Source of the DNA: Chitinophagaceae bacterium | GTDB taxonomy: Bacteria; Bacteroidota; Bacteroidia; Chitinophagales; REEL01 | NCBI GenBank assembly: GCA_007695095.1 | Contig: REEL01000059.1 | Location: forward strand, 1-34,614 | Direction: 5' to 3' | Length of the DNA stretch: 34,614 nucleotides | Shown here: piece after piece, positions 11,243-14,213 of the stretch | How the letters are laid out: the number at the start of each line of letters is the position of its first letter | Numbering within the stretch: position 1 is the first letter of the stretch | The notes under the pieces: model-generated | The model's database searches: none | Told to the model about the DNA's origin: nothing | The model's input: the letters and a program-made list of their open reading frames with translations, nothing else | Translations under genes and position numbers: made by a program

Positions 11243-11989
11243 ATGAAAAGTCAGTTGAATGACATACCAGCAGAAACTGAAAACAAGAAATTGGAAGAGC
11301 TATTTCTTGCCGTTTACTTCAACGACTTAGAAAAAGTTATTGAGTTTAAAAATCAATATCCCGAACAATATGCTCAAAAGGAAAAATTTCAAATTGATGA
11401 AAATACCACTTTTGACTTAACAAACTTGACCTTTTTCAACCAGACAATATGGTTTGACGGAGATTGGATTGACGATATAAAGCCATTAGTTGAAAAGCAC
11501 AGACAGAGGACAGAAAATATGTTAGACTTTTGGCGTGCTGAATTAGGACGCCAAGAAATTTATAGACAAATTGAGTATAATTACTATTGCGATTTTTTTT
11601 ATTGCTATGACCTAAACGATCCGGAAAATAATGAAGTAGTAATATTAGACCCAATAACATATTTCACAGAAAGAGGGTTTCGAGAAATTGACTTAAGACT
11701 ATATAAAAGTGTTGAATGTTTTGATTTTGTTGAAGTAGAGAAATTATTAAAACAAGGTGCAAAAACAAACATTCATTTTTATGAAGACGGAGACAGCAGT
11801 GTTATTTCACTTATTTCCGGTGAAGTTTCATTTTTAGCGAGTTGCCAAGTTATTCCTGAATTTAAAATATTTGAAACAAAGGGTTACAATCAAAATTTTG
11901 ACATAGCACAAATGTTTGGTGACATACTCGGTTTGGCTGCATACGAAGAAATGTATCACTTACTGAACAAGTATGGCAAAGAGGAATGA
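11243..11989 (+). CDS. Hypothetical protein with ankyrin-like segments
   Basis: A 248-residue soluble protein I do not recognise as a named family. Two segments look like ankyrin helices: LEELFLAVYFNDLEKVIEFKNQYPE near 17 and LYKSVECFDFVEVEKLLKQGAKTN near 152. The middle is rich in aromatic and acidic residues (WFDGDWIDDIKPLVEKHRQR, YNYYCDFFYCYDLNDPE). There is no signal peptide or membrane helix. It stands alone, pointing away from its neighbours, between two long spacers of different character from the rest of the window. It could be an accessory gene acquired as a single cassette, perhaps an immunity or protein-interaction protein. That is only a guess. Confidence 0.65.
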   Translation: MKSQLNDIPAETENKKLEELFLAVYFNDLEKVIEFKNQYPEQYAQKEKFQIDENTTFDLTNLTFFNQTIWFDGDWIDDIKPLVEKHRQRTENMLDFWRAELGRQEIYRQIEYNYYCDFFYCYDLNDPENNEVVILDPITYFTERGFREIDLRLYKSVECFDFVEVEKLLKQGAKTNIHFYEDGDSSVISLISGEVSFLASCQVIPEFKIFETKGYNQNFDIAQMFGDILGLAAYEEMYHLLNKYGKEE

Positions 11990-12240: not shown

Positions 12241-12618
12241 TTACCACCTTGTAACAAAAACTGCCTTTTTTGCAAGTTTTCTAGAAATGCCTTTGGTAAA
12301 CGTTCCTTTGATTAATGCATGAGCCGGGTTGTCTCTTAATGGGGCATGCACATTTTCAAGGTTTAATGAATGTGTAAAAGATGCAGTAAGCCCATATAGC
12401 TTGTAAACTTTGTAGTCTATAGCAGCTTTTTCATAGGTTGTTAATCTTTTGATGTCAACTGAAAGACCGTCTTCGTCTTTACTAATCGAAAAATTTGAGG
12501 ATGAGGGTGTGCCATCAGGCTTAATTATAAAGTCCGGAGGAGCATGAATAATCCTTCTTAAAAGCAGGTCATTATCTTTTATTTTTTCAATTTTATTGCT
12601 TTGAAATTTAGACATCAA
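12241..12618 (-). CDS. Hypothetical protein, third gene of the TIGR04255-like triad
   Basis: A 125-residue protein of unknown function with no signal peptide or membrane helix. The most structured part is the C-terminal half: LNLENVHAPLRDNPAHALIKGTF followed by the basic SRKLAKKAV. The spacing of Asp, Asn, Pro and His in RDNPAHALI looks conserved-like, but I cannot tie it to a known active site. The N-terminal half is charged and polar. Translation starts inside the end of the preceding gene (11-base overlap), so the two are probably translated together. A second Met is at codon 2, so the start could be 3 bases later. Confidence 0.7.
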   Translation of the reverse strand: MMSKFQSNKIEKIKDNDLLLRRIIHAPPDFIIKPDGTPSSSNFSISKDEDGLSVDIKRLTTYEKAAIDYKVYKLYGLTASFTHSLNLENVHAPLRDNPAHALIKGTFTKGISRKLAKKAVFVTRW

Positions 12619-13075
12619 AATAGTTAATTAAATCTGCTAATCCGGATTCAAGGTTTGTTTCTTTTACAACTTCATCCTCTATATCAAAAAGCAGGAGTTC
12701 AGTAGTACCATCAGGATTAAAGTACAATTCAGCAGCTTTCTCTCCTTGTTTAAACTCAATCATGATTTCTCCGTTTACACCGGGAGCAATGAAGTATAAA
12801 GGAAGAGAAAGGCGATCATATTCAATTAGAAAATTCTTAGAAGCAGATATAGATTCTTTTGCAGGGGATTTAGCCCCATAACTGTTCCAGTTATCATTTA
12901 AGTTTGAAATGTCGGTCAATTTATGCAACATACTTAAAACCTTTTTAGACAAAGGCCAATTTTCCGGAAACACAGTGCTATTTGAAAAAACATTTAAAGT
13001 TTTCTCACTTACTATCCGGATAGAATTTTGGGAAGGCCCATAAATTTCTGCCGGTTTATTTACTAAAGCTTTCAT
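12608..13075 (-). CDS. Hypothetical protein with NWNSYGA motif, second gene of the triad
   Basis: I chose the ATG at 13075, giving 155 residues and a 20-base overlap with the upstream gene. An earlier in-frame ATG at 13123 would add 16 residues and lengthen the overlap to 68 bases, which is less usual. Features are LTDISNLNDNWNSYGAKSP (starting about residue 51), then a helix, YFIAPGVNGEIMIEFKQGEK and ELYFNPDGTTELLLFD, which read as an alpha/beta fold ending in beta strands. There is no transmembrane segment. The LNDNWNSYGA phrase recurs, from memory, in small proteins of accessory regions, but I cannot name a function. It overlaps both neighbours, so all three genes form one unit. Confidence 0.72.
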   Translation of the reverse strand: MKALVNKPAEIYGPSQNSIRIVSEKTLNVFSNSTVFPENWPLSKKVLSMLHKLTDISNLNDNWNSYGAKSPAKESISASKNFLIEYDRLSLPLYFIAPGVNGEIMIEFKQGEKAAELYFNPDGTTELLLFDIEDEVVKETNLESGLADLINYFDV

Positions 13076-13805
13076 AAAAATCTTTTTTACATATTCTTTT
13101 AAATATATCAGACGTGCATTCATGTGCTGAATTCAGCCAATGTAATAATGCTTTTTCATCCATATTGTTTTTTACCTTTACGGAAGTTTGCCAGGTTAGA
13201 ATGTCTTCATTTTTGTTATTTTTTCCATTTGAAATAGTTAAATTCAACAAACCTTTTTCTTTCAAATCAAATGACTGGTCGAAATTTAGTTTTACAAGTT
13301 CTCCCATTGAATCAAAATGATTTTCAAAACTAAAATTCAAATGCTTTAGAATAAAATCTCTCCAGTTAGTAAACCCATAATCTTTAACTCTTACAACATC
13401 AATATAACGTAAAGATGCAGAAATAAAGTTTATTTCCTGATATGCATCTGAAAGCTTGCGAAGATTTGTTTTAACAAGAGGGTAATACTTTTTCTCCCAT
13501 TCATAATCTTTATCCGTATCATTCACTGCAAAAATACCCGGTCCAATTTGTAATACCGGCCATTGGTTTTTGCCTTTCCAAAACTGATACATAGTCTGAT
13601 ATGGCAAAAACTGATGAGGTAAATCTTTTGGATAGAGTTGCACAACTTCAGGAAAATCTTCTTTTATCTTTTCTTGAAATTTGCCTAATGCAAAAGAGAA
13701 TCTCGAATCCAATACTTTTCCGCCATCAGCACTAGGGTCTAACTCCCAAAAGGCTTCAAAAATCACTTCATGTAAAGGAGCATTGGGTAATTTTTTTACT
13801 GCCAT
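13056..13805 (-). CDS. TIGR04255-like protein, first gene of the triad
   Basis: A 249-residue soluble protein. The N-terminus, KLPNAPLHEVIFEAFWELDP, has the 'aPl-E-V-i-E' opening of the sporadically distributed TIGR04255 family. Further family-like features are the aromatic QFLPYQTMYQFW region near 66, VLQIGPGIFAVND near 85, and the strand SLRYIDVVRV near 131. The function of this family is not established to my knowledge. It leads a three-gene unit with overlapping downstream genes. A TAAATTTG element, an exact match to the -7 consensus, lies at 13810-13817 on the minus strand, 4 bases before the ATG, so the message may be nearly leaderless. Confidence 0.75.
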   Translation of the reverse strand: MAVKKLPNAPLHEVIFEAFWELDPSADGGKVLDSRFSFALGKFQEKIKEDFPEVVQLYPKDLPHQFLPYQTMYQFWKGKNQWPVLQIGPGIFAVNDTDKDYEWEKKYYPLVKTNLRKLSDAYQEINFISASLRYIDVVRVKDYGFTNWRDFILKHLNFSFENHFDSMGELVKLNFDQSFDLKEKGLLNLTISNGKNNKNEDILTWQTSVKVKNNMDEKALLHWLNSAHECTSDIFKRICKKDFYESFSK

Positions 13806-14213
13806 ATCACAAATTTACATTTTTTTAAATAATAGATGCATGTAGATTTCTTTTTCCCGCAAAGGAAGTGTGTTAATAACGCAGCTTCAGGAATGATAGT
13901 TGTTTACTTTAAACTACACTTTCAATCTACTTCAGCCTGAACAATATTTATTTATACAAAAACAGTAATAAACAGGCCAGGTTGTTTGAATAGTGTATTT
14001 ATTGCCGGATAATTATTCATTTCATTTCTTATTTTTCCTTTCCGGTTCTGGTTTTAAATACTTGCCATGTCAAAACCAACAACCTATTGTCAATAAAGGC
14101 AGTATGAACAAATGGAAAACATATAGTTTTGAAACTTTTGATCAAATTTAAGAAATTCACCATTCCCCCATTTCTTAAAGAACTTGTATATTCGTAAAAC
14201 TAAACGAAGATTA
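13806..14213. other. Intergenic region between divergent genes
   Basis: About 400 bases separate the minus-strand triad from the plus-strand SDR gene, so both promoters should be here. Besides the -7-like element next to the triad, there is a loose inverted pair TGGTTTT ... AAAACCA around 14050-14080 with a long loop. I see no convincing open frame, RNA gene or terminator. The frame of the SDR can be extended back to a TTG at 14184, which I did not use. Confidence 0.4.
13810..13817 (-). promoter_or_regulatory. Putative -7 element of the triad promoter
   Basis: On the minus strand the bases read TAAATTTG, an exact TAnnTTTG match, ending 4 bases before the TIGR04255-like start codon. I see no good TTTG at the -33 distance, so this may be chance in AT-rich DNA. 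If real, the transcript starts at or next to the ATG. Confidence 0.35.

Follow-up and report, generated by a model that had tools for sequence, protein, structure and literature searches.

Three genes with overlapping ends

The stretch of DNA analyzed here, hereafter the window, comprises 34,614 nucleotides of a Chitinophagaceae contig (REEL01000059.1) and harbors three genes on the minus strand, in the order A, B, C, whose ends overlap one another (Table 1). The original prediction had described the first of them as TIGR04255-like, and it is a true member of this family, matching positions 1-251 of the 252 of the profile with 103.4 bits for a cut-off of 30 (1.7e-29). The motifs reported for the two other genes, LNDNWNSYGA in B and RDNPAHALIKG in C, are both present, as is the overlap of 20 bases between A and B. 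The overlap of 11 bases claimed between B and C is found when C starts at the alternative TTG codon at 12618, and shrinks to 8 bases with the ATG. The longest frame of B begins at 13123, and we retained the ATG at 13075 because a relative with 45% identity supports that start. As read from the sequence, the order and the overlaps of the genes would fit the adjacent, coupled genes of type II toxin-antitoxin systems.

The -7 promoter element of Bacteroidota has the consensus TAnnTTTG. A stretch weakly resembling it, TAAATTTG, starts 12 bases upstream of the start codon of A. If this is a genuine -7 element, then the mRNA of the unit would be nearly leaderless.

The flanking genes are ordinary ones (GMC oxidoreductase, SDR, RidA-like, and PI-PLC-like), and no defence-like gene adjoins the unit. 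Its G+C content is 0.332, compared with 0.38-0.41 for the oxidoreductase and SDR genes nearby. A search for insertion repeats around the unit gave only weak, chance-like repeats. The nearest neighbor, on the plus strand (11243-11989), encodes a protein of 248 aa, has a similarly low G+C content (0.323), and gave no match in Pfam, NCBIfam, or PADLOC.

Table 1. Features of the unit in the window (positions) and gene content of related loci (locus identifiers)
Feature	Position or loci	Strand	Basis or remark
Gene A, TIGR04255 family protein, 249 aa	13056..13805	-	NCBIfam match; AlphaFold model
Gene B, 155 aa from ATG	12608..13075	-	PDC-M32A C-terminal match; conserved with C
Gene C, 124 aa from ATG	12241..12615	-	PDC-M32B match; predicted ART fold (model); invariant R20/S52/H99
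A/B reading-frame overlap, 20 bases	13056..13075	-	Sequence; proposed translational coupling
B/C reading-frame overlap, 8 bases	12608..12615	-	Sequence; 11 bases with TTG start of C
TAAATTTG, resembles Bacteroidota -7 element TAnnTTTG	13810..13817	-	Motif only, weak
TIGR04255 as first partner of B-C	Window, L038, L044, L027, L102, L099, and others
DUF4209(RNRxAHG)-B-C	L028-L031, L039-L043		Hymenobacter plasmids and chromosomes
PemK/MazF third gene	L003, L004, L010, L011, L080		Antitoxin-like second genes
PIN/VapC third gene	L086, L089, L091, L095		Antitoxin-like second genes
Zeta toxin third gene	L053		Antitoxin-like second gene
HEPN third gene	L002, L054		Antitoxin-like second genes
(S/T)Q(T/A/D)CD-motif protein	L006, L008, L055, L073, L078, L079, L083, L085, L093, L094, L101
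HEAT-like second gene with third protein of ~170 aa	L007, L009, L014, L021, L052		Bacteroidota and a cyanobacterial plasmid

The same trio occurs in the same order in a Saprospiraceae MAG contig (SKYC01000260.1, locus L038), which was found by scanning a genome collection with C. The identity with the genes of the window is 49% for A, 45% for B, and 56-60% for C, and the ends of A and B overlap by 17 bases, the counterpart of the 20 bases in the window. The conservation of three open and coupled frames at this distance implies that the trio is not due to chance. Further relatives were found in Planctomycetota and in viral contigs. Nothing useful was obtained when A, B, and C were searched directly by sequence in Pfam, PHROGs, and PDB, a tblastn search of A from the window against plasmids gave no match, and several scans of viral contigs using single-protein or mixed alignments lacked either conserved stretches or confirmed matches.

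A conserved gene pair with changing first partners

Gene B is made of a variable N-terminal extension followed by a domain with the motif W-x-x-Y-G-A. In PADLOC, both proteins give weak matches, B to the C-terminal part of PDC-M32A (residues 257-355 of 375, E 3e-9) and C to PDC-M32B (PDLC04579; E 5.3e-5, 21.8 bits). Searching all the fetched loci with profiles of both genes, we found C beside every B (38 matches, or 33 distinct loci once duplicates were removed), with adjacency scored in 37 of the 38 and a start-codon miscall in the remaining one; since many of these loci served to build the profiles, the count should be read as a description of our sample, not as an independent estimate. The gene placed first is not constant. 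It encodes a TIGR04255 protein in the window and in several other loci, in Hymenobacter a DUF4209 protein that contains the motif RNRxAHG, and the N-terminal domain of PDC-M32A, fused to B, in yet others. The expectation that the genes would occur together in other genomes was thus upheld for B and C, whereas TIGR04255 swaps partners.

DUF4209 is a HEPN family (PMC3710099). It was discarded as the usual partner of B and C, because the DUF4209 loci retrieved from Bacteroidota lack the pair and the link is found in Hymenobacter only. Gene C is absent from the plasmid gene table of two of the Hymenobacter loci (L030 and L031), and the DUF4209 frame of another (L029) is split into two ORFs.

PDC-M32 is a candidate phage-defence system of PADLOC, listed in Sinorhizobium prophages (PMC12429752). 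One might take the unit for a plain member of it that differs by the gene split alone: both have the domain of B, which lies at the end of M32A, followed by C, which corresponds to M32B, and B and C match these parts. However, PDC-M32 has a single M32A protein of ~375 aa, of which B matches only the last ~100 residues. In the window, B is a separate gene and TIGR04255 replaces the N-terminal 250 residues, A giving no match to PDC-M32A at E up to 1. Elsewhere, DUF4209/HEPN proteins occupy the first place. We consider this explanation improbable. In a PDC-M32 locus (L036, 1994-3364), the next gene encodes a large protein whose GDPGSGKTT motif is P-loop-like and which, by eye, is STAND/NACHT-like.

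The AlphaFold model of C, built from 11 sequences, has a mean pLDDT of 87.1. Foldseek gave no significant match for it, and the top twelve were all Tpt1/KptA. With VIA, all 42 matches listed have an ADP-ribosyltransferase (ART) fold. Their Z values range from 8.3 to 5.5 for Tpt1/KptA, the best one aligning Tpt1 over 97 of the 124 residues of C, and are of 5.2 for VPA0770, 4.8 for DarT, and 4.2 for NarE, with weaker values for ParT (3.0) and PARPs (2.2-2.7). A profile-profile comparison of C with KptA lent no support (Prob 0.3-0.4), so that no homology to KptA was found by profile and the fold assignment is drawn from one model of 11 sequences with a best Z near 8. On this basis, C is likely to have an ADP-ribosyltransferase fold, the one of the RNA 2'-phosphotransferase Tpt1/KptA and of DarT, ParT, and NarE. 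It differs from Tpt1/KptA by the lack of sequence-profile similarity and of the RNA-binding lobe of Tpt1.

All of the 24 sequences of C that were compared, which come from three partner contexts, share R20 (in strand 1), S52, and H99, an invariance that was partly selected for, since some of the sequences were chosen by eye for the motif. Reading the order of the strands, rather than a residue-level superposition, would place the Arg and the Ser at the positions of the R-S-E pattern and the His near the usual Glu. There is no conserved Glu, and the third conserved residue is His99. C has an R-S-H pattern instead of the R-S-E, H-Y-E, or Tpt1 patterns of ART-fold proteins. While the original prediction had recognized no enzymatic motif in the unit, this needs to be amended in view of the predicted fold and of the three invariant residues. 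Catalysis by C is uncertain, and we rate it below the fold, because His99 seems to stand in place of the glutamate; its mechanism may be atypical in this respect.

TIGR04255 operons in other genomes

The family TIGR04255 is named for its sporadic distribution alone. Our sampling agrees with such a spread, which had been put forward for the first gene: the family is present in 24 of the 395 Bacteroidota genomes that were sampled and, for the phylum to which the Planctomycetota relative belongs, in 51 of 294, and among 40 close kin genomes a protein-level match to A was found in its own genome only. The family was not found by name in the full-text literature searched. Taking as coupled a gene whose ORF starts within -120 to +30 bases of the end of A, we found a coupled downstream gene in 56 of the 59 other loci, the commonest junction being a 4-base ATGA overlap, and a coupled upstream gene in just 11. 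A thus mostly stands at the head of a coupled operon, and the tight coupling initially noticed in the window is a frequent trait of these loci.

The third gene of these operons is often exchanged for a known toxin. Among 51 third-slot proteins, Pfam searches identified PemK/MazF (5), PIN/VapC (4), HEPN (2), and zeta toxin (1) families, i.e., known toxins in about a quarter of the loci. Three of the 51 match DUF7689, and many others have no recognized family. The second genes are small, and some carry HTH or Xre-like antitoxin domains, while others have, by eye, MazE- or VapB-like tails. The presence of PemK, PIN, HEPN, and zeta toxins in the third slot of other TIGR04255 operons gives strong positional support to the earlier suggestion that the unit is a toxin-antitoxin-like module.

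The settings of TIGR04255 loci include plasmids and viral contigs, and their neighbors include zeta toxin, abortive infection protein, and multiubiquitin/ThiF genes. In a Rhizobium plasmid (L057), the operon adjoins a multiubiquitin/ThiF/DUF6527 cluster, and in a Methylocystis plasmid (L055) it adjoins a gene of an abortive infection family. In a small sample of 12 loci, we found the defence genes PglZ, DrmB, DrmC, SIR2, Old, and AriA nearby, and 95 matched defence models compared with 45 in control regions, the latter being mostly promiscuous models, e.g., PD-T4-6 and ShosA. The mobile settings and the nearby defence genes favor defence over plain addiction, although the sample is small and not decisive. 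The mobile settings also bear on the possibility that the unit is an accessory housekeeping or metabolic complex, with neither toxin nor defence role, whose likeness to toxin operons would be one of position. The lack of the usual ART glutamate in C would be in line with such a complex, but the patchy spread, the plasmid and viral-contig settings, and the known toxins occupying the same slot argue against it, and we give it little credence.

Proposed mechanism and its alternatives

The AlphaFold model of A was built from five sequences (pLDDT 79.7, pTM 0.81) and suggests a duplicated strand-helix-strands-helix unit. Its conserved residues include P10, E13, Y101, R133-Y134, N/D136, and F235. 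Guanido kinases come first among its structural matches (Z 9.0), a resemblance that was not adopted given an identity of 4%; TBP and AdoMetDC match at Z near 6. One could thus imagine A as a nucleic-acid-binding subunit, either a repressor of the operon or a sensor of phage DNA or RNA with a duplicated TBP-like saddle. In the model, each half arranges its strands and helices in the order of the TBP repeat, alignments with TBP chains span 153-164 residues (Z about 6), and one strong viral Foldseek match carries the annotation of an early transcription factor large subunit-like protein. Still, chance arrangements can reach a Z of 6 and the guanido kinases have a higher score, so we hold this role of A to be quite unlikely.

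On balance, we lean towards the unit being a three-component toxin-antitoxin-like module, probably one of abortive infection. From their positions, we propose an antitoxin-like adaptor role for B and a toxin role for C. Who binds whom, the toxicity, the trigger, and the defence role are inferred as follows. C would be a compact ART-fold enzyme acting on NAD+ and some component of the cell, which the W-x-x-Y-G-A domain of B would bind and silence. The variable N-terminal extension of B would bind A, the shared controlling subunit that would keep B functional. Upon sensing a trigger, e.g., a phage product, A would let go, B would fail, and C would be released.

This logic in three parts has precedents. 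In TAC systems, one family of SecB-like chaperones serves the unrelated pairs HigBA, HicAB, and MqsRA (PMC5105189), and in CmdTAC an ADP-ribosyltransferase of mRNA becomes free once the chaperone has been detached by a capsid protein (PMC11618068). TIGR04255 resembles the former in being a single family of third components found with several unrelated toxin-antitoxin pairs, and differs in that no relationship to SecB was found and in the toxins, which here are PemK, PIN, HEPN, zeta, and ART-fold proteins. The unit shares with CmdTAC three genes, a (predicted) ART-fold effector, an antitoxin-like middle protein, and a third, controlling protein, but the latter is TIGR04255 instead of SecB-like, and C is small with a His near the usual Glu position. 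The modular idea is also similar in Panacea (PMC8832971), where the controlling family is a different one.

These precedents raise the possibility of a chaperone addiction, where A would be a dedicated chaperone needed for the folding or stability of B, and its titration by phage or stress would free C. The antitoxins of PIN toxins provide a comparison. Two solitary relatives of these toxins, located on cyanobacterial plasmids (L126 and L127), have antitoxins of 87 and 96 aa, whose N-terminus is DUF2281-like by eye. The VapB-like antitoxins next to TIGR04255 (L081, L086, L089, and L095) have the same toxin-binding tail and a different, hydrophobic N-terminal extension, as one might expect if A were a chaperone. 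The comparison covers the PIN type, since plasmids gave no PemK-type control antitoxins without TIGR04255. However, the hydrophobic segment was not found in B of the window, and a relationship between A and SecB gained no support by sequence: SecB (PF02556) matches none of 55 TIGR04255 proteins, and hhalign of A with three SecB sequences gave a Prob of 0.1. SecB is also absent from the structural matches listed, an absence that leaves room for a structural relationship. A dedicated chaperone therefore seems rather unlikely to us.

Extending the toxin-antitoxin-like reading beyond the window, we tentatively suggest, at somewhat less than even chances, that TIGR04255 is the common controller of an undescribed and widespread family of three-component toxin-antitoxin or abortive infection systems whose toxins can be exchanged (PemK, PIN, HEPN, zeta, and ART-fold ones, as well as several other types). 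C and PDC-M32B would then found a class of compact R-S-H effectors with an ART fold, and the B-C cassette would also be combined with sensor domains of the HEPN type and of other types. Both the controlling family and the effector C appear to be undescribed. If true, this would give a function to TIGR04255 and an explanation for the uncharacterized candidate PDC-M32, and would add a third-component protein, different from SecB and from Panacea, that serves as the constant part while many unrelated toxins replace one another.

Two other kinds of partners recur in TIGR04255 operons (Table 1). An unassigned protein with the conserved motif (S/T)Q(T/A/D)CD is frequent, often behind an HTH protein, and is possibly a further family of effectors or sensors. 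A pair of likewise unassigned partners associates a HEAT-like second gene with a third protein of ~170 aa (LARKITRAKW...SFWRC).
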